DNA of 64,000 nucleotides from the NCBI RefSeq assembly GCF_000003195.3, contig NC_012876.2:48045276-48109275 (forward strand), written 5' to 3'. Numbering within the stretch: position 1 is the first letter of the stretch; every line of letters begins with the position of its first letter. Below the pieces are notes generated by a model. It worked only from the letters and a program-made list of their open reading frames with translations, was not told the origin of the DNA and searched no databases. This DNA is from Sorghum bicolor (Eukaryota > Streptophyta > Magnoliopsida > Poales > Poaceae). A program made the translations under genes and the position numbers. This document shows positions 24,240-64,000 of the stretch, piece by piece.

Positions 24240-25453
24240 AAAACATGGAAGAGTTTTACAACTCCCAGACTCCACCAAGTGAAGAACCTAGATCTATGAG
24301 CACAAACACACTGGAGATACTAGACACTCAGGCAATCACTGCCCTGAGATGCTTGAGGACGTAACTACTGGAGTAACCCCGTTGTGAAAGTAATTACTGA
24401 CCTTCTGCCGGTCAAGAGAGACAATCCAGGACGCCCCGTCATCTCGATCTCCATCGGCATGTTTGCAGATCGGACGCTAAGTTTCCCAAACGGAACATTG
24501 AAGAACCTCTGCGTCCGTGTTGGTACCTTGTACGCTCCAGCAGACTTCATGGTGATAGAGACTGGTACTGATGAGAGGGCACCCATCATTCTAGGGAGGC
24601 CATTCCTGAACACCTCGGGAGCTGTCATCTACGTTAGTGCTGCCAAGATCAGTTTCTACATCAAGGGGAGGAAGGAGACGTTTTCCTTCAAGAACAAGAC
24701 TACACAAATCTCAGAGCAATCCCGACATGAACCAAGGAAAGGACCAACAGGAGGAACAGGAACAAGCAATTGTGGACCGAGTCAGCTAAGATGGTCACTA
24801 CTGCTCAAGGCGGTCAAGATTGTCAACTCAAGTCGCCTTTCTTGATCAAGAAGGACGACCCTGGTGTCCCAAGCATCGAGTGCACAATCAACGGATATTC
24901 TTTTCAGAAGACACTCTACAACACCGGATCTAACGTCAACATAATGGCCGCAGTCACTTATCAGCTCCTGCATGGAACCATGTCCCTACAACCAACATAC
25001 ATTCAGCTCCAAATGGCAGATCAGACATTCTGAAAGATTGAAGGTTATTGACATGGGACAAGACGAGTACGATCCACCCATCATCCTTGGAAGACCGTTC
25101 TTTAGCACCATTAAAGCAATCATATACATTGGAACCAGAGAAGTCCACATGCACTTCCCCTCAGAGAAGGTACGCCACTGTTTTACTGACCCTAACTATA
25201 TAGTTGAAGATTCTAAGCAGGTCAGGACAAGAAGACGACGACACAGCCGCAACCAGAGGAGGCAAATCATCAAGGATGAATGGTTAGACAATGAAGGAGA
25301 AGTTGTAAGGTCTGAAGACATACAACTTAAACAGAATTGTCCTGAGGCGACCGTAGCACCGAGTCAAGTGTGGAGAGAGAAGATAGTTATACATGAAGAG
25401 CAGGCTCCACCGGAACCACCGACTACGCCATCCAGCGAATCCCAGGACGATTG
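24240..25453 (+). pseudogene. pro: Two tandem retropepsin-like domains of element N, broken
   Basis: Domain 1 (about 24417-24700) opens RPVISISIG and has APIILGRPFLNT, but the segment that should carry the Asp-X-Gly-Ala site is missing between IGMF and ADRTLSFPNG. Domain 2 (about 24860-25170) has VPSIECTING and an active-site-like NTGSNVNIM, with Asn (24920-24922) in place of the catalytic Asp. Its C half PPIILGRPFFSTIKAIIYIG is in another frame after a deletion near 25030. A charged tail ends at TGA 25452-25454. The order matches element A at 12373-13868, so the domain pair is older than either copy. There is no sign of reverse transcriptase or integrase. Confidence 0.75.
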
Positions 25454-25616
25454 AGAAAACGGAGAGTCCCGTTCGAAGGACGTAAAAACACCGAACGCCC
25501 TGCCAAGAGGTAAACTTGGTAGTTATCTTTTTCCTTTCAATTATTTTAGTTAATCAGGTTCATATCATCTTGAAAATAAAATAAAAATGTTAAGTAAGCC
25601 CCATGTGAGTATGCTC

Positions 25617-25716
25617 NNNNNNNNNNNNNNNNNNNNNNNNNNNNNNNNNNNNNNNNNNNNNNNNNNNNNNNNNNNNNNNNNNNNNNNNNNNNNNNNNNNN
25701 NNNNNNNNNNNNNNNN
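25617..25716. other. Scaffold gap of 100 N
   Basis: Exactly 100 N. The sequence before it (24601-25616) is repeated without visible change after it (25717-26732), so the gap probably joins two overlapping contig ends. Confidence 0.95.
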
Positions 25717-26569
25717 CATTCCTGAACACCTCGGGAGCTGTCATCTACGTTAGTGCTGCCAAGATCAGTTTCTACATCAAGGGGAGGAAGGAGACGTTTT
25801 CCTTCAAGAACAAGACTACACAAATCTCAGAGCAATCCCGACATGAACCAAGGAAAGGACCAACAGGAGGAACAGGAACAAGCAATTGTGGACCGAGTCA
25901 GCTAAGATGGTCACTACTGCTCAAGGCGGTCAAGATTGTCAACTCAAGTCGCCTTTCTTGATCAAGAAGGACGACCCTGGTGTCCCAAGCATCGAGTGCA
26001 CAATCAACGGATATTCTTTTCAGAAGACACTCTACAACACCGGATCTAACGTCAACATAATGGCCGCAGTCACTTATCAGCTCCTGCATGGAACCATGTC
26101 CCTACAACCAACATACATTCAGCTCCAAATGGCAGATCAGACATTCTGAAAGATTGAAGGTTATTGACATGGGACAAGACGAGTACGATCCACCCATCAT
26201 CCTTGGAAGACCGTTCTTTAGCACCATTAAAGCAATCATATACATTGGAACCAGAGAAGTCCACATGCACTTCCCCTCAGAGAAGGTACGCCACTGTTTT
26301 ACTGACCCTAACTATATAGTTGAAGATTCTAAGCAGGTCAGGACAAGAAGACGACGACACAGCCGCAACCAGAGGAGGCAAATCATCAAGGATGAATGGT
26401 TAGACAATGAAGGAGAAGTTGTAAGGTCTGAAGACATACAACTTAAACAGAATTGTCCTGAGGCGACCGTAGCACCGAGTCAAGTGTGGAGAGAGAAGAT
26501 AGTTATACATGAAGAGCAGGCTCCACCGGAACCACCGACTACGCCATCCAGCGAATCCCAGGACGATTG
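25717..26569 (+). pseudogene. pro: Duplicate of protease region across the gap (likely artefact)
   Basis: Same sequence as 24601-25453 at an offset of 1116 bp. It contains the last part of domain 1, all of domain 2 with the same NTGS and the same frame break, and the tail. It should be treated as the same locus as 24601-25453, not a second gene. Confidence 0.85.
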
Positions 26570-28740
26570 AGAAAACGGAGAGTCCCGTTCGAAGGACGTA
26601 AAAACACCGAACGCCCTGCCAAGAGGTAAACTTGGTAGTTATCTTTTTCCTTTCAATTATTTTAGTTAATCAGGTTCATATCATCTTGAAAATAAAATAA
26701 AAATGTTAAGTAAGCCCCATGTGAGTATGCTCATGGCATAAAGCCCATAAGTACATTCACTGTGGTGGCATAAAAATAAAATAAATATATTCCTGTCCTA
26801 TAAAAATAAAATTATAAAAATAAATTTATGATCCTATTAAAGAGAGTAACATTTATTGAGGAGGCTCAACATGATAAAGGCTAGATATTTATGCTAACAC
26901 TTAACCAGTTCCACAAAGCTTTGTTGTCTATTTGAGCTCCACAGAATTCAAGGATCAAAGAAGACTAGCAGACGGAGGACAACCTAATCGCTGTCAGCCG
27001 ACATTCAAATAAACCTCCACCACCTACTAGCTACATCAGAAGAAATTACATCAAAATCCAGCTTAGGGGAGAGCACCCCCATTTACCCAGCTAAGTATTT
27101 TACTCACGTTTATACTTTACTCAAATAATAAAAAGATGCATGATCTTAAAAACCCAAATAAAGATTTTGTGCTTATATATATATATCTTTGCTTAGTTTG
27201 CTAAATAAATAAATAAATAAAGTTTTCTATGAACCCTCATGATAGGCTCTCACATGGAATTGATGAATAGTTGCTCTGCCATGACTAGTTCTAAAAATTA
27301 AAATCTCTCTCAAGTTTAGGCATGACTGTTATTAATTAAGATTTGCTCTAAACCTGAACTTGTGGGAAGAGTACTTGATCTAAAGTCTAAGTCGTTAACG
27401 GATATGATATGGGAAGGTTGAGCTGCTGTTTATCTATTCCTAGAGATGCTAGAATTCTGGAGAATTTTATCTTTGAAAATATTTAAAATGTTGCATGATG
27501 AGTTCCTGTATGATGAGAGTTTAAATTCCTACCACAGCCATATATACATGCTTGCTAGACTATGAACCACACATTTACTTTACTACTTATGAGCATTGAG
27601 TGTGGTCAAGCTGTGTAGACCCTTAGGAGCTTGTCATGTGGTTAAAATCAAGATTCACTTGCACGTTCACTCACACATGCTGCTTCTACTCCAAAAGTAC
27701 GCATCCACATATATCCACCTATTTTCATCTCCAGAACCACCCAAAAATATTCTACTCCTAATCCGGGAGAGAATAGCCAAAAACATTCTCCTATTTCTAT
27801 TTTTCCCTGTGAAATAAATGCTCTAGTTATCTTGGTTACTACCACTTGCTATATTATTTCATGAGATGAGTGCTCTCTAAAAAAAGAAAAAAAAGAAAGA
27901 AAAAAAGAAAGAATACGAGGAAATAAAAAGGGGCAAGTGCCCGGAACCTCGAAAGAAAAAAAAAGTGAGACGAGAGGTAAAAATGGACAAGTGTCCGACA
28001 GTAGAATTAGGGGTACAAGATACCCACCTGAGAGAAGAAAAAGAAAAAAATATATATATAGAGGATCTCATTCTCCTCAAAAAGTTTCAAAAGAGCAAGA
28101 AAGGTATGTATCCTCTCAAAAGAGCACAAGTAGAATTAGACTTTCACCATTGTTATCACCATCATCACCATACACCATTCATTCGCCACACATGCACATC
28201 TTGATTTGTCTTATTGACTTGTTCTTCTGGATCCATGGTTTGACTATGCAATAAATGTCTTGTAAGTATGTATTAGCTGTCTCCCACCTATGAGCTCCAG
28301 ATATCAAAACCTTATTAGAGTAGGGTGAGAGAGAAGGCAATGCCACTATGCTTCATACTACAAATACCACATACTTTGAGAGAAGGCATATACCATCACT
28401 GCCTTGGTAAGGATCCAGAAATACCACAAAAGAGAGACTAGAGAGAGTCATACAAGGAATCTCTAAGTTTTATTTGAAAATCTGCAAAAACTCCGGAGCT
28501 ATAGTTAATCGAAGAACAAGAGACATAGCGCTTGATTAGACCGTTCTATCTTTTAACTACTCAAGACAGAAGTGACGGTTACAAACCCCATGGTGAAAGG
28601 TAATATGAGTAAGTTTTAAGTCTTAACAGTTTACTCTAACCCAGAGATGATATCTTGTTTGAACGCATTTGTATCTTTAAGGCATAAAACCACTGCAGAA
28701 ACTCTTGAGTCCATCTTTGCTCGGGGACGAGCAAAGGTTA
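26570..28740 (+). other. 3' non-coding region of element N
   Basis: No supported gene. It contains a G/C hairpin (27066-27079), a TA run and AAAT repeats near 27175-27225, an A/G-rich stretch (27880-27965), and one unit of the tggacaagtgtccga...tagaattaggggtac block (27982-28030). The last 400 bp match other Athila 3' ends. Confidence 0.65.
27066..27079 (+). other. Short hairpin in element N
   Basis: GGGG / loop of 6 / CCCC, following catccagctta-like flanks (aaatccagctta). Same position relative to the coding part as the hairpins at 14444 and 41015. Confidence 0.5.
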
Positions 28741-28754
28741 AGCTTGGGGGAGCT
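28741..28754 (+). promoter_or_regulatory. Polypurine tract of element N (pre-gap copy)
   Basis: agcttgggggagct directly before an LTR start. It is repeated at 30458-30471 because of the duplicated assembly. Confidence 0.85.
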
Positions 28755-29691
28755 TGTTGACGGTCCTTAATGCTCACATTTAACCATCAACTAATCATAG
28801 AAAAGGATCAAAATGCAACCAACACCTAGACTTAGGGTTTTATCTGACAGAATTCCACGAGTTTTGGTGTTTGTCTATTTCTGCAGGGGATTATCAGGAA
28901 ATACGGAAGAAAGGCCCACACGTCGGGTTTACATAGAGATATTAACGTGCCGCGCAATTTTCTATCATCTAGAAGACTCCAGAAGCCACGGGAACGAACG
29001 GGAAGGAAATCGGGCTCGAAGGCAGGGCGCCCGCCCAACTCTCCTGGGCGCCCGCCCACCTACAGTGCCCAATCAAGACACGTTTCGCGGACAACGCTCC
29101 ACCGACCTAAAGGATCAAGGAAAACCGTGCGATCAATGTCGGTTTGATCTGACGGCCCAGATTCACTTGAAGGGACTATAAAACCAGACCCCCTGGCCCC
29201 TGGAGATCATACCTCTTCTACAGAATCAAAGCTAGGGTTTCAATTCTTCATCCAAGTAGAGAGGATCCCTCTAGTTCTTCTAGTTCTACCTCTAGTTCAT
29301 CTAGATCTAGTTCTAGTTCATCTAGTTCTAGTTCTAGTTCCTCTAGTTCTAGTTCTAGTTAGTTCTAGTTGTAATCTAGAAAATAGGGAGAGAGAAGAGG
29401 AGAGCGGAGGAGGAGCCGGATCTGTTGGATCTTCCTCAACATTATACTTTTGCAGCATCTGGTTCGTTCTTCATCGTTCTCCAGGTTCTTCAATTCATAA
29501 TTCCTGAGTTCTTTAATTACTTTTATTTACATTCAAGTTATTTATTGGATTCCCGCTTGCATCAAGTGCTCTAGTCTTTATAACGCTAGAGTAGTAATTA
29601 ATAGATTAGACGTGGTGTTTAGTCTTGCGATTACCTGGAATTGCACCCAATCCCACGGATTGTTGTGGTAGCCCTAGGGTAGTGACAGCCC
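28755..29691 (+). repeat. 3' LTR of element N, pre-gap partial copy
   Basis: The first 937 bp of the LTR, ending at the N run. No difference is visible from 30472-31408. Most likely the same LTR assembled twice. Confidence 0.85.
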
Positions 29692-29791
29692 NNNNNNNNN
29701 NNNNNNNNNNNNNNNNNNNNNNNNNNNNNNNNNNNNNNNNNNNNNNNNNNNNNNNNNNNNNNNNNNNNNNNNNNNNNNNNNNNNNNNNNNN
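29692..29791. other. Scaffold gap of 100 N
   Basis: Exactly 100 N. The flanking sequence 28139-29691 recurs at 29856-31408 (offset 1717, 1553 bp). Confidence 0.95.
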
Positions 29792-29855
29792 AATACTTCC
29801 CTTTGCTGAGAAAAGGGTCGGGCATCGTGGTCGCTCTGTATTTCGCATCAACTCC
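29792..29855. other. 64-bp unexplained sequence after gap
   Basis: It begins aatacttccctttgctgag and ends catcaactcc. It does not match the corresponding place before the gap (upstream of 28139) or anything else noticed in the window. Probably a contig-end error or foreign sequence. Confidence 0.5.
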
Positions 29856-30471
29856 GACTTTCACCATTGTTATCACCATCATCACCATACACCATTCATT
29901 CGCCACACATGCACATCTTGATTTGTCTTATTGACTTGTTCTTCTGGATCCATGGTTTGACTATGCAATAAATGTCTTGTAAGTATGTATTAGCTGTCTC
30001 CCACCTATGAGCTCCAGATATCAAAACCTTATTAGAGTAGGGTGAGAGAGAAGGCAATGCCACTATGCTTCATACTACAAATACCACATACTTTGAGAGA
30101 AGGCATATACCATCACTGCCTTGGTAAGGATCCAGAAATACCACAAAAGAGAGACTAGAGAGAGTCATACAAGGAATCTCTAAGTTTTATTTGAAAATCT
30201 GCAAAAACTCCGGAGCTATAGTTAATCGAAGAACAAGAGACATAGCGCTTGATTAGACCGTTCTATCTTTTAACTACTCAAGACAGAAGTGACGGTTACA
30301 AACCCCATGGTGAAAGGTAATATGAGTAAGTTTTAAGTCTTAACAGTTTACTCTAACCCAGAGATGATATCTTGTTTGAACGCATTTGTATCTTTAAGGC
30401 ATAAAACCACTGCAGAAACTCTTGAGTCCATCTTTGCTCGGGGACGAGCAAAGGTTAAGCTTGGGGGAGCT
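29856..30471 (+). other. Duplicate of element N 3' internal end (likely artefact)
   Basis: Same sequence as 28139-28754, ending in the polypurine tract agcttgggggagct. Non-coding. Confidence 0.8.
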
Positions 30472-31750
30472 TGTTGACGGTCCTTAATGCTCACATTTAA
30501 CCATCAACTAATCATAGAAAAGGATCAAAATGCAACCAACACCTAGACTTAGGGTTTTATCTGACAGAATTCCACGAGTTTTGGTGTTTGTCTATTTCTG
30601 CAGGGGATTATCAGGAAATACGGAAGAAAGGCCCACACGTCGGGTTTACATAGAGATATTAACGTGCCGCGCAATTTTCTATCATCTAGAAGACTCCAGA
30701 AGCCACGGGAACGAACGGGAAGGAAATCGGGCTCGAAGGCAGGGCGCCCGCCCAACTCTCCTGGGCGCCCGCCCACCTACAGTGCCCAATCAAGACACGT
30801 TTCGCGGACAACGCTCCACCGACCTAAAGGATCAAGGAAAACCGTGCGATCAATGTCGGTTTGATCTGACGGCCCAGATTCACTTGAAGGGACTATAAAA
30901 CCAGACCCCCTGGCCCCTGGAGATCATACCTCTTCTACAGAATCAAAGCTAGGGTTTCAATTCTTCATCCAAGTAGAGAGGATCCCTCTAGTTCTTCTAG
31001 TTCTACCTCTAGTTCATCTAGATCTAGTTCTAGTTCATCTAGTTCTAGTTCTAGTTCCTCTAGTTCTAGTTCTAGTTAGTTCTAGTTGTAATCTAGAAAA
31101 TAGGGAGAGAGAAGAGGAGAGCGGAGGAGGAGCCGGATCTGTTGGATCTTCCTCAACATTATACTTTTGCAGCATCTGGTTCGTTCTTCATCGTTCTCCA
31201 GGTTCTTCAATTCATAATTCCTGAGTTCTTTAATTACTTTTATTTACATTCAAGTTATTTATTGGATTCCCGCTTGCATCAAGTGCTCTAGTCTTTATAA
31301 CGCTAGAGTAGTAATTAATAGATTAGACGTGGTGTTTAGTCTTGCGATTACCTGGAATTGCACCCAATCCCACGGATTGTTGTGGTAGCCCTAGGGTAGT
31401 GACAGCCCTAACGGTCGACGTATTCCACCACGTTCGGATTGGTGTTTGTAGGACCGTAGTCGGAGCTTCCTAGCCCCCTTCTCATCTCTTTCTGTGGTTA
31501 GTGTTCTGATGTCCCGATATAGATAATCTTGAAGTAAATCTTGATTCTTAGATCAACTAGAGAACTCTCAGGAAACTTCCTCTCTTCCCACCAAAAATAA
31601 TTATATAGTTATCCTTTGGCGATCTTGGATCTTAATTAGTACACTCACGTTCCCTGTGGAAAATCGATACTCTGGAATACTCCCGTGTGAAAGCTACATC
31701 GGTATCCGTGCGCTTGCGGATTTTTCTGTTTGCGTTTAAAATACCCAACA
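30472..31750 (+). repeat. 3' LTR of element N
   Basis: 1279 bp, the same length as the 5' LTR, TGTTGACGG to ACCCAACA, followed by the duplication GTCTT. TATA-like box at 30893-30900. Confidence 0.95.
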
Positions 31751-49384: not shown

Positions 49385-52300
49385 TCATCTCGAGATTTGA
49401 AAGACGTACCATTTTTCATAGAATGAGGGATAAGTTACTTGTAAATAGTCTTCCCGTTCCCAAGTGGCATCTCTTTCACTTTGGCGGTTCCACAAAACTC
49501 TAAAAAGTTTAATCACTCTCCCCCGAGTAACTCTTTCCTTGACATCAAGAACTTGTACCGGCTTCTCTTCATAGGATAGATCGGACTGCAACTTAAGATC
49601 TCTTGTTTCAACTCTCTCTTCAGGCACACGAAGGCACTTCTCGAGTTGAGACACGTGGAATACAGGGAAAATAGCTCTCATTTATGGAGGTAGTTGTACC
49701 TTGTAAGCTGCCTTGCCGCTCTTCTCAATGATTTGGTAGGGACCCACATACCTAGGGGCGAGTTTTCTTTTTACGCCAAAGCGATTCACACCCTTCATGG
49801 GCGATACCTTGAGGTACACAAAGTAACCTACTTCAAACTCTAGTGGTCTTCTTCTTCGGTCGGCATAGCTTTTCTGTCTAGCTTGGGTAGCTTCCATGTG
49901 TTTCTGGATAATGATGACTTGCTTTTCGGCTTCTTTGACCAAGTCAATTCTGTAGTACCTCCTTTCACCAGGTTCAACCCAGTTTAGAGGAGTTCTACAC
50001 TTGCGACCATACAAAGCTTTGAAAGGAGCCATTTGAATGCTTTCTTGGTAGCTATTATTGTATGTGAATTCAGCTAAGGGTAGCCATTTTTCCCATGCAC
50101 CCTTGGAAGAGATAACGCATGCTCTCAACATGTCTTCCAAGATTTGATTCACACGCTCAGTCTGACCGGAGGTTTGAGGATGGTAGGCTGAACTGCGAAC
50201 CAACTTTGTACCAAGGAGTGAATGCAAATGCTCCCAAAAGCGGGCAGTGAACTGAGGACCTCTATCAGAAATAATAGTGCGGGGTACTCCGTGCAATTTA
50301 ACAATCTAAGAGAAGTACAACTTAGCATAATCAGATGGTCGGTAGGTAGAATGTACGGGAATGAAATGAGCTGACTTGGTCAAGCAGTCAACAATAACCC
50401 AAATAGAGTTGTGTCCCTTTTGAGTAGGGAGAAGTCCAACAATGAAATCCATGCTGATTTCTTCCCACTTCCAACCCGGAATCGACAAGGGTTGCAATGA
50501 AACTACAGGCTTAAGGTGAATTGCATTTACCCTACAGCAAGTATCACACCTAGCAACATAAGCTGCTATTTCCTTCTTCATCTTGGTCCACCAGAAACGA
50601 GGTTTCAAGTCTTGGTACATTTTGCTACTACCTGGATGAATGGACAACTTGGAAGAATGAGCTTCATCTAGAATTTTGCTGCATAATTCACGGTCTTTAG
50701 GTACAACTAGCCGATCGTCAAACCACAACACACCTTTCTCATCTACCCAGAAATGCTTGGTGTCTTGATCTTTCATTTTTCTCTTGATGTGGAAGACACC
50801 AGGGTCAGTCTTTTGGAGCTCTATAATTTGACTCTCTAGCGAGCAACTAACTACAATGTTGTGCAGGACCACAGGATGCAATAAATTGAACCCTTCCTCT
50901 AAGAGAGGTCCAACATGTTGTTTCCGGCTGAGAGCATCGGCTACAACATTGGCTTTGCCTGGATGATAGTGTACTTCCAGATTATAGTCTTTTATCAATT
51001 CCAACCATCTTCTTTGTCTCATGTTTAGTTCGGGCTGAGTGAAGATATATTTAAGGCTCTTATGGTCAGTATAAATGTGACATAGATTACCCAATAGATA
51101 ATGCCTCTAGAGTTTCAATGCATGCACAACTGCTGCTAACTCTAGATCATGAGTCGGGTAGTTGGCTTCGTGCTTCCTCAGCTGCCGAGAGGCGTAGGCA
51201 ATAACTCGGCCTTCTTGCATCAGTACACAACCAAGGCTAGTGCCAGATGCGTCACAAAAGACATCAAATGGATTTTCAATGTCAGTCTGTGCCAAAACAG
51301 GAGCAGTGGTCAGCAGGTGGCGTAAAGCAGTGAAAGCGAATTCGCACTCCTGAGACCACACAAATTTCACATCTTTTTTGAATAGCTTGGTCATAGGCTT
51401 GGCTATTTTGGAGAAGTCTGGAATGAAGCGACGATAGTATCCAGCTAGACCGAGAAAACTCCGAACCTCATGCACTGAAGTCGGGACCTTCCAGTATAGA
51501 ACCTCCTGTACCTTTGATGGGTCAACTGAAATACCATCTTCAGATAAAATATGGCCTAGGAAAGGCACTTTCCTCAGCCAAAACTCACATTTGCTGAACT
51601 TGGCATAGAGCTAATGTTCTCGCAATCTAGTGAGTACAATCCGAAGGTGCTTCTCATGATCTTGGGCATTTTCAGAATACACCAATATGTCATCGATGAA
51701 CACCACCACAAATTTATCCAGTTCAGGCATGAACACCGAATTCGTCAGGTACATGAAATGAGCAGGGGCATTAGTCAGACCAAAGGACATGACTAAATAC
51801 TCATACAACCCATACCTGGTAGAGAAAGCCATTTTAGGAATGTCTTCGGGTCGAATATTGATTTGATGATACCCGGATCTCAGATCAATCTTTGAGAATA
51901 CCTTAGCCTTAGCTAGTTGATCAAACAGAATATCAATGCGAGGCAGAGGATACTTGTTCTTGATAGTCACGGCATTCAGCGGACGATAGTCTACACACAT
52001 ACGTAGAGACTTGTCCTTCTTCTTGACAAAGAGAGCCGGACAACCCCATGGAGAAGAACTAGGCCGAATAAGACCCTTCTCTAGGAGTTCTTGCAGTTGC
52101 TTTTTCAATTCTGCCAATTCATTGGGTGGCATTCGATATGGCCTTCTAGAGATAGGTGCAGAACCCGGAATTAGGTCAATTTTAAACTCTATGTCTCTAT
52201 CCGGTGGCAACCCAGGCAGATCCTCTGGAAAGACATCCGGAAACTCACACACTACCGGAATCTCTGCCACAGTGAGTGGTCTAATAGCATTAGCAGCGTG

Positions 52301-52790
52301 ACGGATGTCATTGTTCTTGGGAAGATGGACTAAGAAGGCTTCTTTGCTATCAGGCTCCCGCAACATGACTACCCTCATGGAGGTATCTATTAACACCCCA
52401 TGCTTACTCATACAATTCATTCCCAGAATAACATCTATCCCCAAGCCTGGCAAGATTACTAAATCTGCTGAATAATTACGCCCTTCAATGGCAATATGTA
52501 CATCCCTCACTAATTGATTTGTAGCGATTTGATTACCAGCAGCACTAATGCAAAATTTGCCACTGTCAAGATCAACTACATGCTGCCCATGCTTAGATGC
52601 GAATGCTTGACTCATAAATGAATGCGAAGCTCCATAATCAAACAAGACAACTGCAGGGTGTTGATTGACAAGAAACATACCAGCGGTGACCACTTCACCT
52701 TCAGGGATTTCTTCGACAGTGGTATAGTGCACTCGGCCAGTACCGTTATTACCCCTAGCTGCAGAATTCCTCTTGGGATAAGGGCAATCC
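49385..52790 (-). pseudogene. pol: pol of chromovirus B, one frame with four stops
   Basis: Domains in order from 52790: end of a gag zinc-knuckle region; protease with FDYGASHSF (Asp at about 52637-52639); reverse transcriptase with [22 protein letters not shown] and FIDDILVYS (Asp pair near 51694-51689); RNase H ([26 protein letters not shown]); integrase with a zinc-binding region, [18 protein letters not shown] and GQTERVNQ; and a C-terminal chromodomain-like block (VLDVKERVTRGRVIKLFRVL... WERE, about 49560-49410). The whole region keeps one frame. It is broken only by stops at 51611-51613, 51107-51109 and 50306-50308 (TAG) and 49682-49684 (TAA). The chromodomain would guide insertion to heterochromatin in active relatives. 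Confidence 0.92.
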
Positions 52791-53204
52791 TGTAACAGAA
52801 CCGCCCAAATTATAAGAGATTAAGCCTAATAGTGACCATTTGCATAGTCAAACCATCGAGCTTAAGCCCATATAATCCCGGTAGTCCGTGAAATCTCGAA
52901 GGATTTCAAACCATAGATCGTGCATACAGCCAAGATCGTAATAAGTTTAGCACAGTTACATCCAGTTCGAAAATAACCATCAAATACCTCGGAGTGCTTA
53001 AAGTTATTACAAATCAAGTTCATAAGTAGCAGAAGCTTCATAGTTCGAAAAAAACACACACATGCTTAGTCTGATACAGTGCCATAGTTTTGGTCATTCC
53101 CACAAAAGCAAAAGAAGAGACGGAGTGACCATCGCCCTTGATCTAGTCATCACCCATAGCTGGGTACAGGCAGAGGATGCAATAACCATAGTACTTTTGA
53201 CCAT

Positions 53205-53262
53205 CTGCAAAACAACATGGGAGTAGAACCCTGAGTACGAGAATGTACTCAGCTAGACTTAC
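53205..53262 (-). other. Candidate mini-intron with hairpin, LTR B'
   Basis: Same layout as in LTR B: GGTAAGTC, hairpin CTGAGTAC-N6-GTACTCAG (53231-53252), TTTTGCAG. Confidence 0.4.
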
Positions 53263-53579
53263 CCGTCATAAACTCAAAAATAAAGACTCTTCAAGGATCA
53301 TGAAGGCTATATAGTGGGGTTGGCTGACGACCTTTGCATAAAAGCACTCTTCTATTAACATATCCTAAAGGAATCCTTCTTCTCTTAATTAGCTCAATGT
53401 TGAAAGTATCATTACCTATTATCTAGGTTTGCACCTGCACTATGCCAATCAAAATGTAATAATATGATGGTACCTCATCATAGCATTCATGCATTTATTC
53501 ATCATATGACTCAAGTGTTCCATAGTCCTTACTACGAGGACGAAGCTCATGTCAAGTGCTCACTGTCCAGGAGCGATGG

Positions 53580-53607
53580 CGATTCGAATCGATTTCTAAC
53601 CAGCTGG
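53580..53607. promoter_or_regulatory. Palindrome pair, LTR B'
   Basis: CGATTCGAATCG (53580-53591) and CCAGCTGG (53600-53607), 8 nt apart. Confidence 0.55.
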
Positions 53608-56600
53608 CGAGGTATTCCCCACACAAACCACACTCATTGATCAAGGGAGCTACAGATCACCGTATTACACTATCCAGGACCAAATCGCGGGTTCGGTAGG
53701 CACCGCCAGTACCCGAGGACCGTTCCGGTGACCGAGGTATCCAAGGTATACCAAGGTTGCGCGCCGCGCCCTCGTCGTTCTCCTCAACCATCACCAATAC
53801 AGCGCATGGCGGCTCGACTCCCGGCCCGAATAGTGTTCAGGCTTCGCGGTCGGAACGACTTATCCTTCCAGCTAAGTGTGGGGCATGCGTTCAACATGAC
53901 AAGAGGGCCGTCATCGATCGGTCCTTAATTGACACAGGCAGGGGCACTACAGTCAACCCACCATAAGACCCTGCCCGGTCTCAAATTCCCATTCCACACT
54001 TGGTTATTCTCTTCCCAAAGCAATCACTGCTTAATCAAGCCGGTATCCACCTATATCTCGCAGGTGACAGGAAATCACCTGACTTTTACCGTACTAAGCA
54101 GGCTAAGCATAGACTCCGTGCCTATCTACATAGGACAAGGTAGATAAACGAGTAGGGATAACAAGGAGTACATATGCATCAATGGTATTGTAACACCCTA
54201 GGTGTTAAGCATGCACTTAGCCTTATCAAAGCAATGCATAAGCATTCTCATCAAGCATAGCATCATGAGCAAGTCATTCATCCCCAAAACATGATTTATG
54301 TGCTTTATTTCATGTGCTTTAAATATGCTAAAAATATGGTGCTTGCTTCTAAAATTGTGGAATATTCAAACTAGGTTGATTTATGTGTAAGAAGAATTAA
54401 GAATATTTTTGTGCAATTTTTGGAGCTATGGAATTTATATAAAAATTCCCAAAATGAATTTATTTGAAAACCTAGAACTAGTTTTAATATGTAATTCAAA
54501 TTCTGTTTGGAATTTGGTCTTGCTTGTTAAAACAAAGTTGTAGGGTTTTTGTTTTTGAACAACTTTGTTTTTGGGAGCAAGAGGTGAAAATGATTTTAAA
54601 TTGGTCCAAATGAATTTAGAAAAGAATTTGAGAAAAGAAATTCAAAAAAAATGGAAAAGGGGCAGGCGCTGCCGGGCCAACCCCGCCTCCCTTTCGGCCC
54701 AGACCGCGGCCCGGCCTGCTTCCCCCTCCCCCTCTCTCCCGCGCGCGCGGCGCCCGCCTCGTCCCAGCCAGCGTCGGCCACGTGGCGGCCGTACGCCGGC
54801 GAGGAGCGCGCCGCGGCCGACCGGTTTCACCTGGTCGGGACGCCGGCCCGGGCTCCCAGGCCACTCCATTCGCCCTGTCGCCCGCGCCCCTCTCCCTCCT
54901 CCCTCCACTCGCGAGCGCAACTGAAGCCGTAGGAGCTCCGCCGCAGCGCCATCGCCGGAGTAGCTCTGCTGCTCACCGCCGGCCACGCCAGTGCCCCAAC
55001 CTCGACGCCAAAACCACCAGAGCACTCGCCGTCGTCGCGGTAAGCTCCTGCGAACGTTCTACCGAGGTGAGAGCCCGTCGAGCGCCGTGAATAGCTCGCC
55101 GGAGTTGCTCCGAGCTCGCCGGAGTGCTCCGCCGTGACGGATCTTGCTGTTTCCGCCCCCTTTTCGCTCGTTCTTTGGTGCGCTAGATCAGTCGTGAGGA
55201 GAGGAAGCTCGTAGGGTGGTTTGTGCGCGCTCTACCGCACCGGAGTGGCATGGCCACGGCGAGCAGCGCCGCTGTGCCGCGATGCATGCTCGACGGAGGT
55301 GCTCCGGCCCTCCTCCGGCCAATCCGAGGGTACCGCCGGGTGCGCCTCGCTGCGGGGAGCACGATGGTGCTCACCCCGTGGCCGGGGACCTCACCGCCGG
55401 CGAGATCTGCTCGTCGGAGGTGTCCTCCCTCTCGGTCTCGCTGACCAGTGGGGTTAGAGGCCCACTGTCAGTCGCAGGGGGACCGTGTTGGGTGTAGATC
55501 TGGGTGTCCTTAGCATTTTCGATCCAGATTTCGATTTGATTTTCAGAAAAGGTTTTTCCAGAAATCGATTTAAAACTTGTAAAATCCATATCTTGAGTTC
55601 TACAGCTCCAAATTTGATGAAATAAATTTTGGTGTGCTCTATATTTTTAGATCTACAGTTTGATGTAATTGCATGTCATGTTTGAACACTTTTTCTGGAC
55701 AGAAATAATTAATCCATGCTTTTGCTAAACTTAGAAAATGCATAGGAATTAAAATATGGCTCAGAAAAATGTGAAACTTGATTTGTTGGCCCTGCATGTT
55801 TGTTAACTCACTGGGAAAATTTTGCTACACCTTATTTGGTGTATAAATGAATTTATAGTGACTTAAATGCTTGCATGACAGTGGTTTATGATTTTTTAAT
55901 AAAGATTTGGATCATGCAATCAGTCTGAAAATTTTTGTGGATATTTCCTATGATATTAAACAAATTGTAAAAATATGAAATCTGCTGTTTGACACTTATA
56001 CCACAGTAGAGTAATTTTACTTACCTTTATTAATTAATCTTGTAATTTTTGTAGCTCAAAACAAGTATCCAAAAATTATGAAAAATTTATAGTAGACTTT
56101 ATGCTTGACTGGAAGTCTCCTGTAATTTTTGTGGAATTTGTAGATGAACAGAACTGCATGCAAATTTTGATGGGCCTAGAAAGGAATAAAGAAAGTTATG
56201 AATTGTTATATATGGGTTAAATAGAATAAAAAGGGGGTTTGGTGTATCTTTGAAGCATCATGTGGGTTGTTGGTTACACTTGAAAACAATTGGTAGAAGA
56301 GAATGCAATGGATGTTTAATTCAATTGTCTGTTCTTGGATGATGTTGACTACCTTGTAATGAGCATGACCAAGTGAATCACCTATGCATCATGTCATGAT
56401 CATTTGGTACCTTCTCATACAAGCATCCACTCAGGCATCTCACACTCCACTCATGCGCACACATGCATCATACAGGCTCGCAGGAGAACGAGGTGGGACC
56501 CGAGGGGCCAGAGGAGATTTAGGAGCAGGAACCTCCGGAAGCACAGGAACCCGGAGAGGAGCTACAGGAGTGTCCGGATCACCGGCCCAGCACGTTTGAG

Positions 56601-57282
56601 AAAGGCAAGCCCTGGAGCATTCTAAGTCTCCCTATTCTCGCTAACTTATACGATATATTATGCTTGTTTTACTATACTGCATTTAAGTGATAGGAATTGG
56701 TTGATACCGTTGATGCATTGGTACTCCTTGATATCACCCCTCGTTTATCTACCTTGTCCTATGTAGATAGGTGCGGAGTCTATGCTTAGTTGCTTAGTCC
56801 GGTAGAAGTCGGGTGATTTCCTGTCACCTGCGAGATATAGGTGGATACCTGCTTGTTTAAGCATTGATTGCTTTGGGAAGAGAACAACCAGGTGTGGAAT
56901 GGAATTGGAGACCGGGCAGGGTCTTATGGTGGGTTGACCATAGTGCCCCTGCCTGTGTCGATTAAGGACCGATCGTTGACGGCCCTCTTGTCATGTTGAA
57001 CGCATGCCCCACACTTAGCTGGAAGGATAAGTCGTTCCGACCGCGAAGCCTGAACACTATCAGGGCCGGGAATCGAGCCGCCATGCGTTGTATTGGTGAT
57101 GGTTGAGGAGAACGATGAGGGCGCGGCGCGCAACCTTGGTATACCTTGGATACCTCGGTCGCCGGAACGGTCCTCGGGTACTGGCGGTGCCTGCCGAACC
57201 CGCGAATTGGTCCTGGATAGTGTAATACGGTGATCTGTAGCTCACTTGATCAGTGAGTGTGGTTTGTGTGGGGAATACCTCG

Positions 57283-57310
57283 CCAGCTGGTTAGAAATCG
57301 ATTCGAATCG
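57283..57310. promoter_or_regulatory. Palindrome pair, LTR C
   Basis: CCAGCTGG (57283-57290) and CGATTCGAATCG (57299-57310), 8 nt apart, in reverse order because C is on the plus strand. Confidence 0.55.
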
Positions 57311-57622
57311 CCATCGCTCCTGGATAGTGAGCACTTGACATGAGCTTCGTCCTCGTAGTAAGGACTATGAAACACTTGGGTTATAAAGATAAATGGTTTC
57401 ATAAATGCTATGATGAGGTACCGTCATATTGTACACTTGATTGTAATAGTGCAGGTGCAAACCTAGATAATAGGTAATGATACTGTCAACTTGAGCAAAT
57501 TAAAAGAGAAAGATTTATGTAGGGCATGTAATAGTAGCTTGCCGTTATGCAAAAAGGTTGTCAGCTACCCCACTATATAGCCATCATGATCCTTGAAGAG
57601 TCTTTATTTTAATTTATGACGG

Positions 57623-57680
57623 GTAAGTCTAGCTGAGTACCTTCTCGTACTTAGGGTTCTACTCCCATGTTGTTTTGCAG
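57623..57680 (+). other. Candidate mini-intron with hairpin, LTR C
   Basis: GG|GTAAGTC at 57623, hairpin CTGAGTAC-CTTCTC-GTACTTAG (57633-57654, one G-T pair), TTTTGCAG ending 57680, followed by ATGG. At 58 nt it is short for a plant intron, so it may instead be an RNA structure that only resembles one. Confidence 0.4.
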
Positions 57681-58106
57681 ATGGTCAAATGTACTATGGT
57701 TATTGCATCCTCTGTTTGTACCCAGCTATGGGTGATGACTAGACCAAGGGCGATGGTCACTCCGTCTTCTCTTCTGCTTTTGTGGGAATGACCGAATTAT
57801 GGCACTGTATCAGACTAAGTGTGTGTGTTATATTTTCGAACTATGAAGCTTCCGCTACCTATGAACTTGGTTTGTAATAATTTTTAAGAACTCCGATGTA
57901 TTTTATGAATGTTGTAATCTGGAGGTATTTGTGGACGGCGACCGCTAAACTTATTACGATCTTGGCTATATGTACGATATGTGGTTTGAAATCCTTCGAG
58001 ATTTCACGGACTACCGGGATTATATGGGCTTAAGCTCGATAGTTTGACTATGCAAATAGTCGCTATCAGGCTTAATCTCTTATAATTTGGTCGGTTCTGT
58101 TACAGC

Positions 58107-58118
58107 TGGCATCGGAGC
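58107..58118 (+). promoter_or_regulatory. Primer-binding site of element C, degenerate tRNA-Met type
   Basis: tggcatcggagc, 2 nt after the LTR, resembles TGGTATCAGAGC with two differences. Confidence 0.65.
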
Positions 58119-58927
58119 AAGGTTTAGCGAGTTACTGTTCATAAGCACGTTCTAAACTAAATCTAAACCGGTTTAATAAAAGATTTTATTAATTAATAAT
58201 GATCAAGGAGTTAAGCTAAGTTTTGGAAAACTATCTTGTGTGCCATGGTCATATCCTTTATGCCCAGTTAAGGACTCTAAGGTGGCTAGTTAAGTACTGA
58301 CTTGGGGGTTAATGCATCATATTTCTATTTCGTCGCTCATACGGCGTGCAATAGTATGAGTGCCATTCATTTGAGTGGTAATGTATGGATCCATTTTTCC
58401 TCTACGCCATGGTAAGTGGGAGCTGTGAGAGCATGATCGGATACACTGCCGGTCTAGGGGAGTGTTGTTAGGTGCTGTGTCATGCACACATGTTTTGGTG
58501 TGTTTTGGGAACAGTACCGCATGTTGGGAATTCCGTCCTGAGAGGCGATGCCGTCATTAGGGCGATGATGTGGGTAGTGACACGTCATATGCATGGACGG
58601 GTGTCTGTGTATGTGGGGTGTATAGTTTTAAAATTCTTGTTCTGCACGATCATACTGTGGGTGGGCTGAAATGAGTTTTCTGCAGGTACGCTAACCACGT
58701 TCTCGCTTAGAGCGCTAGCTACGTTATGAGAGAACGTTGTGTGCCACCGCATATATCGCTTAGTGCTAACTTCTGTTCCTTAAGTTTGTGAGATCGTAAG
58801 TTCGTGCATGCATCATATTCATTTCACATCATTGCTCGCTTTCCCCCTTAATTTAATCTGTCCCAATTCTAAATAAAGTAATTAAAGATAATCCTCGCTC
58901 TTACCCAAGGTATTCCATTTGCAGCAA
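58119..58927 (+). other. Leader of element C
   Basis: No convincing ORF. It ends in a pyrimidine-containing attccatttgcag (58912-58924) that could act as a 3' splice site 3 nt before the ATG of the next ORF. Confidence 0.5.
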
Positions 58928-59221
58928 ATGGCGCGCACTAGGCTCACCGCTCGCAAGTCCACTGGTGGGCGGGCCCCTCGCCATCCGTTGGCAGCTAGGA
59001 GCTCTCGACATAAGAGCAAGTTCCTGGAGGAGTTTGGGATGCCCACTTTGCTTTGGAGGGTGCTCAGTTCGATGGGGTATCCTGAAGGAAGGGAGCCTCG
59101 CTACTATTGGGATAAGGAGCCGCTTGGTGACGAGACACTGGTGGGGATCGAGGCAGTTGTCCCTACCAGTGGAGGTGACCCCGCCTGGGGCGGCTGGGTG
59201 TACGAGTCCCGAGGTGCCACG
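58928..59221 (+). CDS. First ORF of element C with histone-H3-like N terminus, truncated
   Basis: The ATG at 58928 is chosen because it has a good context (caaATGg) and because the protein then begins exactly like a histone H3 tail: after the initiator Met, ARTRLTARKSTGGRAPR against H3 ARTKQTARKSTGGKAPR. The Arg-2, Thr-3, Arg-8, Lys-9, Ser-10, Gly-12 and Gly-13 positions are kept; Lys-4 and Lys-14 are Arg. The likeness fades after about 21 residues. The remaining 75 or so residues (FGMPTLLWRVLSSMGYPEG...) are Trp/Gly-rich, globular in character, and not recognised; there is no histone fold. Sequence from 59222 is element D's LTR, so the real protein was longer. It sits where gag should start, so it may be a gag N-terminal fusion or a separate pre-gag protein. 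Confidence 0.7.
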
Positions 59222-59602
59222 TGTGGCAGAACCTCCTGAATTAAGTGGCCCACATGCACCCATCATTGTCTCCAAGACTTGTGATCGGCATGCACGAGTT
59301 CCAAATGACTCAAGAAGTCTGTCGGGTGCCCTCGGAGGACCCCGAATCATCCACATTTTATCTCATACAGGATCAACATGGAGTTACCACAACATTACAA
59401 CATTTGTTACAAAAATAACTTACATCAGAGTGCGGAAGATTTATAACTCAACTTACAACATATGATGGAATATAAACAACTAAATTTCCAAAATGTGTGT
59501 AGAGTAGCGGAAGCATCCTTGGTGAAGCTTCTAAGGTAGGAGAGGTGGATAATTCATGTCGCGCCCACCGACATGACCTCCATTAGCAGACTAAGTCAGC
59601 AC

Positions 59603-59654
59603 CTGCAACAGGGGTTATAAAACCCTGAGTACAAAAGTACTCAACAAGACTTAC
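59603..59654 (-). other. Candidate mini-intron with hairpin, LTR D
   Basis: On the minus strand GGTAAGTC, hairpin TGAGTAC-TTTT-GTACTCA (59626-59643), TGTTGCAG. 52 nt. Confidence 0.38.
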
Positions 59655-60034
59655 CCGATGAGAAAAGAGGAGAACTTAGGGATGCAGGCTTAGGGTAGAC
59701 AAGGGGTGGCTGAGCAAGGAGCCAAAGTGTTTTGCGTAAAAAGCTTACTAATAGTGCATCCTTATTTTCAAGTTTTACCCACGAATTCCTCCCTCGCAGA
59801 GGCCGAGGAGTTCGAGGATAGTCTAACTGGTTGTTCCCCACAGACGAATCCGTGAGTTCCTAGTCCTATCATAAAGTATTATTTATCGATGGCCATAGCT
59901 TCATGTCGCTATGAGTCCGGGAATTGGGATCCGAACCTCATGGGACATTTCCCCTTTCTCATGTTATCATTCAGTTGCATATTTAACTACGATGAGGGTC
60001 GAAGGAATTGAGTCTCCCAATCGGGGAGCAACGA

Positions 60035-60063
60035 CGATTCGAATCGCTTAGCAATCCAGCTGG
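60035..60063. promoter_or_regulatory. Palindrome pair, LTR D
   Basis: CGATTCGAATCG (60035-60046) and CCAGCTGG (60056-60063), 9 nt apart. Confidence 0.55.
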
Positions 60064-63000
60064 AGTTCCTAACCACCCGACATATGTAGAACCAAATCTT
60101 GCATATGTCAACCCAAATCAAGCTCTCCCCAAATCTGACCAGGTTCGCGGCACCCGAGAGCACAGTACTCCACCATCCTACAGCCGATCTAGATGTTTTC
60201 CGGTCATCTCAGATCCGTAAGGTGGGTACACACTACTCTCGCCATCTTTCCACTCCCAGTGCGCGAGTAGCTGTTCGCGTCGAGGGATCACAAGACTGGG
60301 CTTACCGAGGGCAGGCGGTTAGTACTATAAATTCTCAACCCAGCAGGCCATCAACGGAACGGTCCTTAATCGACACAGTCGGAGACACTACTTTAAGACT
60401 CCATTCTTAGAGCAAGTCCACCGACCGGTCTCAAATTAAAACATCATTGATCATAAGTGTATCCCACAACAACCCTTCAAACTTTCTTGTTTAAAAACCT
60501 ATCTAGTAGCAGGGCTAAGCATCGCTACGCAGTTTTAAAATAAACAGGTGTCAAGGACAGGATAACAGATATCAAGGTAGTAAATGCAGCAAGTAGGTTA
60601 ACCCAATTCTTAACTACATAATGCAGCATTTTCAATTTACAAGTGATAAAAGATTCAAAACATTCAAGGAGGGGTTAATGCATCCGGGGCTTGCCTTGGC
60701 CGGAAGGGAAGTCCGACAACTCAGCAAAACCAGATGGATCCACAAACTCGGAAGCAACCCACTGAGGATCAGATTCCTCCGGAGCGTAGTCTACACGTAG
60801 AAGTGCATATGCATGATCAATGAGATGCTCATGACATGATAAAGACAGGTTACATGTTCTTGGATGATAACAACAAACATAACTACCTCGAGTGCAACTT
60901 ACCTTCATGGTATAGAAACAAACTAATCTAGCTATCAAAGCATAGATTACTACTAAACAAATTTTATCATCTTCATTAAGCAAGGTTGTAAAGATCTCAT
61001 GCCAAGTAACCACTAGTTGTCAATCAATCCCAAAGATCAATCAAAATCTAAAATGATTAGGCTTTCTATTTATCTTAATCAGTTCTTAATTAAATATTAA
61101 TGGCAATAATTAAGTATAACATCAAACAATAATTAAATGCCAAAGGTCATTAACCTTAATGACCTCAGGTCATCACACAATCCCAAAAGCACTCAAATTC
61201 TAATTTGGAAATTAAGCTAATCATTATTTAAGTAAAGGCTAGCTAAAAACAATCAACTCTATTTGCACACATAACCAGGACAGCAGCATATATGCAACTT
61301 TATTCAACCATAATTAGAGATCCAAGCATCCAATAAAGGTGATATTAGACTTTCTGGGAAGCTTAGATAATTTTCTACAACTTTGTTATTATCTTCGAGA
61401 ACTGATTTAATAGATAAAATGGCCAAACAGTATGAATAAACAATTCTGTCCAGACGTTAGACAGAATCAGACCTTAAGCTTCATAGATCTATAACCAGAG
61501 TTCTAGATCACCAAAATTCATGATCCATAACATTTTGGAAATCTTATGAAAATTAATACAATTCATCTTTTATCATGAAAGCATGATTCAAAAGTTTAGT
61601 AGGTCGAAATTGCACAACTACAGAAACTGATCCAGGATTTGACAGAAAGAAACCATTTCTGAAACTTAAATTTAAACAGGCATAACTCAGAAACTATAGA
61701 GCCAAATGCCACCAAAATTTAACACCAGCTAGATACATGAATTCTATACAACTTTGTTATAGACAAGTTTCATATCCAACATTATTTACCTAGAGCAATT
61801 CATAATGCTCCAGAAATTGTCGAGAAACCACTAACATTTGAATTATAGAGAAATCATATTTCATTTATGTTCCAAACTTGAACCTGGGCAAAACCCAGCT
61901 CACCAACAGTTGAAATACATCAAAGGGATACTAGAAAACATCATGGCCATCCCTAAATAAATACCTTTCATGTCTTTATTTATTTATTTAGATAAATAGA
62001 CAAAATAATAACCATATATCAAAAGTACACAGTAAATTCTGAGAAAACTACAGCAGCTCATATATGTTCTCCAAAGTCTACTGTATAAATTTCATGCCAT
62101 TTGGATAAGTATAGCAATTTCCATGAAAAAGATAAATTTCCATCACAAGGAAGCATGTAACGGCAAGATAAATAAGAAACTCAACAATTTATACAAACAC
62201 ATAGCTAAATTATGTATCTATATGTTATAACAACCTCATATAAATGCAGAGGAACTGTATTTTATATTTATTCATTTTTAGTTTAATTGTAAACTATTTA
62301 ATAAGCACTATACAAGATAAATTAATAACTTAATCATATGTCATCCAATGAATCTAAAAACTTAACCACAGCACATACACATAATCATTAGTCTACCATA
62401 AAAGTTGCATCTTAAAAGAAGCTATACAGCAATAGATATGAATTTCTTCCTTTTAAGCATAATTAAAAGACATAAATCATAACCAATTATTTTACTACAA
62501 AACATGGTCAGTTTCATATTTTTAATAAAAACTAGACATTTCAAGGAGCACAACAAAATTTGGTTCACCAAAATTGGAGCTACCAAACTCTAGATATGAA
62601 TTTTCAAAGATTCAACAAAACATCTACAAACAAGTCCTTATAGCACTATTCACCTGAGTCACGGTCTATGCAATTAGACCCCTGGAGAACTTCAAATTGT
62701 CGCGCGAAGTCCCTGGTCGCGAACTGGAAACAGAGCAGCTCGTCGGAGATCGCAGTTTTCGGCGTTGGAGTGCTCGTCGGCGGCAGTGGAGCAGCGGGGG
62801 AGTTCACCTAGACTCACGCACACCCTCTGGTTCCCTCTACTTGGCCACAGGTGGTCTGTGGAGGCATGGCCACGTGAACAGCGACACCGGCGGAACTCTG
62901 GACGGGGCTTAGGGGAAAACGTGGCGCTCCGGCTGCCGGGAAGGCGAGGAGAAGAGTTGGGGAGCATCGGGGACTCAGCACGACTTCGTCAAGCTGCTCA

Positions 63001-64000
63001 GAAGTGGTGGAGAAGCACAGAGGAGGGCTGACCACGGTGGCGGGTGGCAGCGGCGTTTCTGCCGGCTCCGGAGAGAAAGAAAACCGGTCAGGGAATTGGA
63101 GATGGTGGAGGATGCCTTCAACTCGTCCATATCACGGTGACTTCAACCAAGCAGGCAGCTGCGTGTCAGCCATGCTCGAGGTGACGTGGGGAAGCAACGC
63201 CACCGAGCAGGGTCGCCGTGCCCTGCTCCCATTGGTGATGTACTGTAGCATTCTTATCCTCCCCTTTTCTATTTCTAAAATTACTTTTTATTTTGTATAA
63301 AAACTCAAAAATCTACCAAAGCAAGAAATGTGCAGCACAAAATTGCCTACAACATTCATTTAAGACTCAAATTCAGATTTCGAAAGGAAGGTGATGAATT
63401 TAATCAAAACAGTTTGAATTTCAAATCTCAAATTGGGGAAATTCCAATTTTGAAATGGGGCAGATTAGAAATTCTAAAATTACTTTTGATTTTTCTCAAC
63501 AACTTGAAAAACTCCCAACATGAAAGTTGTTCAACTTTTTGAGCCCTACAACTTTCATGTTGACCATTTTTTAAAATTCCAAATAGATTTTGAATTGGAG
63601 ATTCAAATTAGAAAAGGGGACACTTTCCGGAAATCTGTATTTTCAAAATTACTTTGAATTTTGCATTGAAACTTCAAAAACTCAAAACACCAAAGCTGTA
63701 CATCTTGACAAGATCTCCAACTTTGCTTTTGAACACAACTTCAAATTTTGCTTGGTTTTTGAATTACATAAAAGGGGGCAAATCAGGGTTTTAAAATTAG
63801 GGTTTCCCCCCTTAAGCTCTCGGAAACTTTTCACACTAGGGTTTTAAATACCAACACAAGCATCCATACACAAAATAAGCACACTTTAATTCCTAAACAC
63901 ATTCAGCCAAATTAAACTTATTTTAAGTTGATGCATCATGATGTGCTTAACAAATATGCTTTGCAATGCTTATGATGACATGATCCAGTTTTAGTGTTCG

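Follow-up and report, generated by a model that had tools for sequence, protein, structure and literature searches.

A conserved histone H3-like tail opens the ORF0 protein of a Tekay-like chromovirus family in Sorghum bicolor

Why should the extra protein of a plant retrotransposon begin like a histone? This question is raised by an open reading frame (ORF) in a 64,000-nucleotide stretch of the Sorghum bicolor genome (contig NC_012876.2, positions 48,045,276 to 48,109,275; the window, throughout, is this whole stretch). The ORF, at 58928-59221 on the plus strand of the window, translates to a protein opening MARTRLTARKSTGGRAPRHPLAARSSRHKSKFLEEFGMPTLLWRVL... and, judged by its position and by the type of element, is the start of ORF0, an extra protein encoded after the primer site and before gag-pol in a Ty3/gypsy chromovirus of Tekay-like type (element C below). 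We are highly confident that its H3-like beginning is a conserved tail of ORF0 proteins.

The H3-like tail across the ORF0 family

The presence of an H3-like tail at 58928, as proposed in a preliminary description of the locus, was confirmed by translation, alignment and database search. Residues 1-17 of histone H3 are identical to the window ORF at 14 of 17 positions (13 had been counted before); the mismatches are the two Lys-to-Arg changes already reported, K4R and K14R, together with Q5L. In phmmer searches of PDB chains histone H3 was the best match of both the window ORF (E = 6.4e-5) and a relative, P0029 (E = 1.5e-5). By eye, the likeness extends to about residue 21-24 in the window ORF, close to the end near residue 21 given earlier, and to about residue 27 in some deep relatives (RLATKLTRK in P0110, HLATKAPRCKSKF in P0196). 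Because some deep members resemble H3 further along, derivation of the tail from the end of an H3 gene is plausible. The earlier statement that no histone fold lies behind the tail also held: a Pfam scan of the window ORF gave no match at E <= 10, the histone family is absent from the Pfam rows listed for five relatives (for P0162, 25 of 27 rows), and the body of relatives models as a different fold, described below.

Relatives were gathered by a protein search (82 sequences), a profile search (628 matches, the listing giving the best 120) and a search with a profile of the body only (60), the last built so as not to favour the tail. These sequences, given P numbers, come from metagenomes, and the set comprises 202 sequences including the window's own. 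The tail was scored where at least 26 residues precede the landmark FGMPTLLW, with sequences in which this landmark is broken left uncounted. It is present in all 59 sequences that reach far enough upstream (window's included), two being degraded by eye. Eight of the 60 body-only matches reach the tail region and all eight carry the tail, one in degraded form. The S. bicolor genome (709,120,108 bases in 846 contigs) yielded 2249 candidate matches to the family, and all 150 of those that were scored span the tail, at 97-100% identity. The preliminary description had allowed for relatives without the tail and for an H3 fragment inserted in this copy only; no tail-less relative was seen among the sequences that extend far enough upstream, and the genomic matches rule out the copy-specific insertion. 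Of the two origins offered there, a captured H3 fragment or selection for mimicry, selection gains support (see below), whereas capture stands only in the form of a plausible H3-gene-end origin for the family.

An H3-like tail at the extreme N-terminus is a trait of divergent subfamilies. Relatives P0029 and P0038, from two subfamilies other than that of the window, match H3 at 16 of 17 residues, and the lowest domain identity to the window ORF is 40% (P0155). Among the 59 tail-bearing sequences Lys-9 is unchanged throughout and R2 is kept in 50, with H, C or W in its place elsewhere. At position 4, 33 sequences have K, 25 have R and one has W; position 14 is R in 46, W in five, K in two and other residues in the remainder. 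Four sequences (P0110, P0143, P0022 and P0196) have Ala for Ser at position 10, reading ARKATGG or AHKATGG, a change that would abolish a phospho-switch.

Contigs from viruses and prokaryotes were also scanned. No relative of ORF0 is encoded by any of 47 viral candidates. Seven of 47 candidates among prokaryote genome contigs match ORF0 over residues 1-19, 1-24 or 1-30 only; because these matches are limited to the N-terminal residues, we read them as ordinary H3 genes from contaminating eukaryotes.

Selection on the tail

Eight divergent members, chosen by hand, gave 28 pairwise comparisons. Mean identity is 0.80 in the tail and 0.53 in the domain behind it, and the tail is the better conserved in 28 of 28 pairs, the narrowest being P0016-P0022 (both 0.76 after rounding). 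Site rates over the 59 sequences have a median of 0.68 in the tail and 0.90 in residues 31-128. Faster decay of the tail than of the remainder, the outcome that would have spoken against mimicry in the preliminary description, was therefore not what we found.

A codon-level comparison across copies was made on 80 fetched ORF0 regions and 24 loci, together 104 loci with 103 distinct sequences; four of the 104 span merely about 0.3-0.8 of ORF0, and the 24 loci represent 23 copies, among them that of the window (L010), because L013 and L024 are the same one. Variants seen once were read as mostly decay after insertion, and variants in at least three copies as mostly inherited through transposition. 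In codons 31-347 the singletons comprise 239 replacement and 102 silent changes (10 stops apart) and the shared variants 56 and 132 (3 stops apart). Among the 103 copies, codons 2-18 hold 11 replacement and nine silent singletons, against none and six among the shared variants (Fisher p = 0.02; binomial p = 0.001 against the neutral expectation, one-sided). The lack of shared replacements persists when the most divergent copies are dropped (0/5, 95 copies) and among stop-free copies (0/5, 85 copies), and the 18 stop-containing copies have no shared change in these codons. The tail thus appears, from few events, to be under purifying selection in the S. bicolor genome.

Several results weigh against this conclusion. 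There are only six shared variants in codons 2-18; variants in exactly two copies are three replacement to one silent; the Fisher test is not significant at thresholds of two or five copies (p = 0.18 and 0.12); and extension to codons 2-24 gives three replacement and nine silent shared changes (p = 0.115). The choice of copies by protein similarity strips out replacements, and this shows in a ratio among tail singletons (11:9) already under the neutral 2.08:1. At the protein level, the tail exceeds the best-kept part of the domain (residues 31-55) in just 20 of 28 pairs, and its site rates over the 59 sequences do not differ significantly from those of residues 31-116 (p = 0.11).

The pattern of conservation bears on what the tail is kept for. 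Slow evolution is not confined to basic residues but is also seen at A, T, S and P (though G12 is fast), a pattern that fits specific recognition. Alternatively, a captured H3 gene end may have been kept merely as a basic segment for nuclear import or nucleic-acid binding, the likeness to H3 being a relic. Tail charge is +6 to +9 in the eight members measured, positions 24, 26 and 28 depart from H3 yet are mostly basic, and a study of sunflower elements predicts nuclear localisation for the 5' extra-ORF proteins of grass Tekay elements (PMC11728184). We nevertheless consider this explanation somewhat unlikely, as it does not readily accommodate the slow rate of most non-basic positions, the silence of all variants common to at least three copies in codons 2-18, or the retention of ARTKQTARKSTGG in the subfamilies of P0029 and P0038, whose domains are 57% identical. 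Arginines, moreover, do change, mostly to H, C or W, the outcome expected of CpG decay.

Predicted body of ORF0 and possible roles of the tail

The remainder of the ORF had been called unrecognised. An AlphaFold2 model of P0029, compared by Foldseek and VIA-align, suggests instead that residues about 33-122 of ORF0 adopt the alpha-beta-beta-beta-alpha fold of double-stranded RNA-binding domains (dsRBDs), with the best structural matches to DRB7.2 and to DCL4 and DRB4 domains at 16-17% identity in the VIA-align rows. Two long helices and then an acidic end follow in predicted models of relatives. In dsRBDs the RNA-contact lysines lie at the start of helix 2, in the pattern KKxAK. A local pattern around this site was matched in 67 of the 202 proteins, and KK occurs in none of the 66 pairs listed (FQ, FH, VE, WE, EE and others), in a register set by eye; on that register the RNA-contact lysines seem to be absent. 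The domain, mostly net acidic and seemingly without these lysines, is more likely to serve in protein binding, like the modules through which DRB7.2 or DCL4 pairs with DRB4. Against this assignment, Foldseek returned no match to the ORF0 model at E <= 0.001 and one of eight domains is net positive (+1). A fold search of BFVD likewise gave nothing with E <= 0.001, its top rows including viral DRBM proteins. The dsRBD family is absent among the Pfam rows listed at E <= 10 for the window ORF and five relatives, the relatives giving weak coiled-coil-type rows of which none reaches its curated cut-off. A body profile gave weak matches alone among PDB sequences (E 0.17 or worse; rootletin, myosin, release factor 2 and others).

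Whether the tail functions by engaging proteins that bind the H3 tail is, in our judgement, evenly balanced, and this is the reading that we favour over its rivals. Because Ala follows the initiator Met, as in H3, removal of the Met would expose Ala-1 and the mature end could equal that of H3. Host proteins that recognise H3 residues 1-10 could then bind or modify the tail, the candidates being ADCP1-like readers, SUVH/KYP-type methyltransferases and CMT-type readers. In the nucleus, ORF0 might connect the element with H3K9-methylation factors, and perhaps also with the DRB/DCL machinery, serving as an adaptor or decoy; the most likely effect would be weaker silencing of the element and the second most likely would be guidance of its particle to heterochromatin. 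The HP1-like plant reader of H3K9 methylation is ADCP1, which contacts R2, K4 and K9me2 (PMC6318295); LHP1, named for this role in the preliminary description, reads H3K27me3 in Arabidopsis. At the ADCP1 contact positions the 59 sequences have R2 in 50, K9 in all and K or R at 4 in 58, with R for K4 in the window's subfamily.

Other considerations temper this proposal. Both K4R and Q5L occur in the window's subfamily, and Arg replaces K14 in 46 of 59 sequences; not every H3-tail binder would accept a tail so altered. Its binding, modification and localisation are predicted, and an effect on silencing cannot be told apart from one on targeting by sequence. We put forward only tentatively, as a possible course of events, that the lineage captured an H3 tail and fused it to a DRB/DCL-type protein-binding domain, giving a decoy that would be methylated at Lys-9 and read by heterochromatin proteins, and that would join the H3K9-methylation and small-RNA arms of silencing.

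The tail may instead tether the ORF0-containing particle or the integrase to heterochromatin via H3K9 readers, a role in targeting and not in countering silencing. The integrase of this family has a chromodomain-like end, although below cut-off, and in sunflower the insertion pattern of Tekay groups that have a 5' extra ORF differs from that of groups lacking one (PMC11728184); the sunflower ORF, however, has no amino-acid similarity to grass ORF0s and its carrier elements insert in chromosome arms (PMC11728184), and we regard tethering as unlikely. Less probable still is that the tail is the ligand of the element's own group II chromodomain and links ORF0 to integrase. A chromodomain-like end does occur in element B, a minus-strand Ty3/gypsy element at 49.4-54.2 kb of the window that belongs to the same long terminal repeat (LTR) family as element C, and the partner of plant group II chromodomains is stated to be not known in PMC3350952 and PMC12786077. 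Yet group II chromodomains are described as lacking aromatic cage residues (PMC12786077), and the group II type is general in seed-plant Tekay elements (PMC3350952), whereas the dicot homologues of Retrosat2 are reported to be without ORF0 (PMC3485330). Chance or convergent likeness without function, which the shortness of the match (about 20 residues) might suggest, was rejected as highly improbable given the E-value of P0029 against H3 (1.5e-5), the position at the initiator Met, the occurrence of the tail in 59 of 59 sequences, its higher identity in 28 of 28 pairs and the signs of selection.

Host element, neighbouring features and known systems

The features of elements C and B and of an insertion nested in ORF0 are collected in Table 1. 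The primer-binding site of element C is of the initiator-Met-tRNA type. Across the 24 loci, the primer-site motif lies 808-826 nucleotides upstream of the ORF0 ATG in 21 (the distance for L027 being corrected by 21 nucleotides owing to an upstream ATG) and was not found in three. The full ORF0 frame is 347 residues in 10 of the 24, the others being cut by stops or insertions or differing by a few residues. Downstream of ORF0, in the one copy followed, comes a frame that encodes gag, zinc knuckle, protease, reverse transcriptase (RT), RNase H and the start of integrase.

The end at 59221, given earlier as that of the ORF, is not a natural one. A nested LTR element cuts ORF0 after nucleotide 294, so that the frame runs on through five foreign codons to a stop at 59237-59239, and ORF0 resumes about 11 kb further on, beyond the insertion. 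The LTRs of the nested element (59222-64000 and L113:1652-6448) are about 4.8 kb long, 99.87% identical over the 4779 base pairs (bp) compared and separated by about 1.6 kb; the element is young and apparently non-autonomous.

Table 1. Positions in the window of ORF0, its host element and neighbouring features
Feature	Position	Strand	Evidence or remark
ORF0 codons 1-23: initiator Met and H3-like residues 1-22	58928..58996	+	core H3 1-17 = 58931-58981
ORF0 codons 24-30, linker	58997..59017	+	variable among relatives
ORF0 codons 31-98, start of predicted dsRBD-like domain; remainder beyond window	59018..59221	+	AlphaFold2 model of P0029, Foldseek, VIA-align
5' LTR of element C, 3' part (left end not delimited)	56704..58105	+	90% identical, inverted, to 52790-54188
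Primer-binding site TGGCATCGGAGC	58107..58118	+	located in window sequence
CCACG, 5-bp target-site duplication of nested insertion	59217..59221		ORF0 nucleotides 290-294 on both flanks
LTR of young nested element interrupting ORF0	59222..64000		99.87% identical to second LTR outside window
Element B LTR, of one family with the LTR of element C	52790..54188	-	90% LTR identity
Element B protease, RT, RNase H and integrase in four decayed ORFs	49682..52732	-	Pfam RVP_2, RVT_1, RT_RNaseH, Integrase_H2C2, SH3_Tf2-1
Chromodomain-like stretch after element B integrase, behind in-frame stop	49430..49540	-	PF00385 E = 3.7e-4, 20.8 bits, below curated cut-off 25.1

Three further observations concern the locus. 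At the ORF0 start (58915-58930), AG occupies -5/-4 in 90 of 94 copies, A stands at -2 in all 94 and G at -1 in 93; CAGCAA is the reading in the window copy, and seven relatives with residues before the Met show ...QM. The AG just upstream of the start is a possible 3' splice site. At 52732-52830 the LTR of element B directly adjoins the protease region with no primer site, ORF0 or gag between, which would be an internal deletion or a spliced, reintegrated form. Finally, perfect direct duplications of 1016 and 1553 bp (24601-26732 and 28139-31408) surround two 100-bp N gaps (25617-25716 and 29692-29791); they are probably assembly artefacts, and local tandem repeats are untrustworthy.

ORF0 was described by Gao et al. 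in 2012 as a 5' additional ORF of grass Tekay (Del) chromoviruses, with mainly hydrolase functions proposed (PMC3485330), and is borne by Retrosat2, RIRE3, RIRE8, FRetro3, ZMsat2, Sorsat2, Brasat2 and Sb7 (PMC3485330; PMC11728184). The ORF described here resembles it as an extra ORF upstream of gag-pol in a Tekay-type element, the two being matched by position and element type. A weak DRBM likeness (template modelling score, TM, 0.35-0.37) of the maize Tekay and sorghum Sb7 proteins, predicted to be nuclear, was noted in the 2024 sunflower study (PMC11728184). The word 'histone' does not occur in the main texts of PMC3485330 and PMC11728184, nor in PMC7264820, a survey of additional ORFs. In the literature searched, whose coverage leaves out subscription papers and preprints, no retrotransposon ORF was reported to carry an H3 tail. 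ORF0 and its weak DRBM likeness are thus already known; a conserved H3 tail on a retrotransposon protein did not appear in that literature, and the present analysis is the source of the tail, of the evidence that it is conserved and selected, and of the DRB7.2/DCL4-type match.

Plants silence their transposons by means of H3K9 methylation and small RNAs. If true, a conserved H3 tail on a DRB/DCL-type fold would give direct access to the way in which an abundant lineage copes with silencing; ORF0, whose function has been described as unknown, would gain a testable role, and plant group II chromodomains would gain a candidate ligand. Two known systems come closest. In its predicted fold, at residues about 33-122, ORF0 resembles DRB7.2, the second dsRBD of DCL4 and DRB4 of plant RNA silencing, from which it differs in its 16-17% identity and mostly acidic composition. 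Histone mimicry is practised by viral proteins such as influenza NS1, and ORF0 is like them in being a parasite's non-histone protein with a short stretch that resembles a histone tail. Unlike these mimics, it belongs to an LTR retrotransposon and carries not a short motif but about 20 H3 residues, at the exact N-terminus and conserved across a family.
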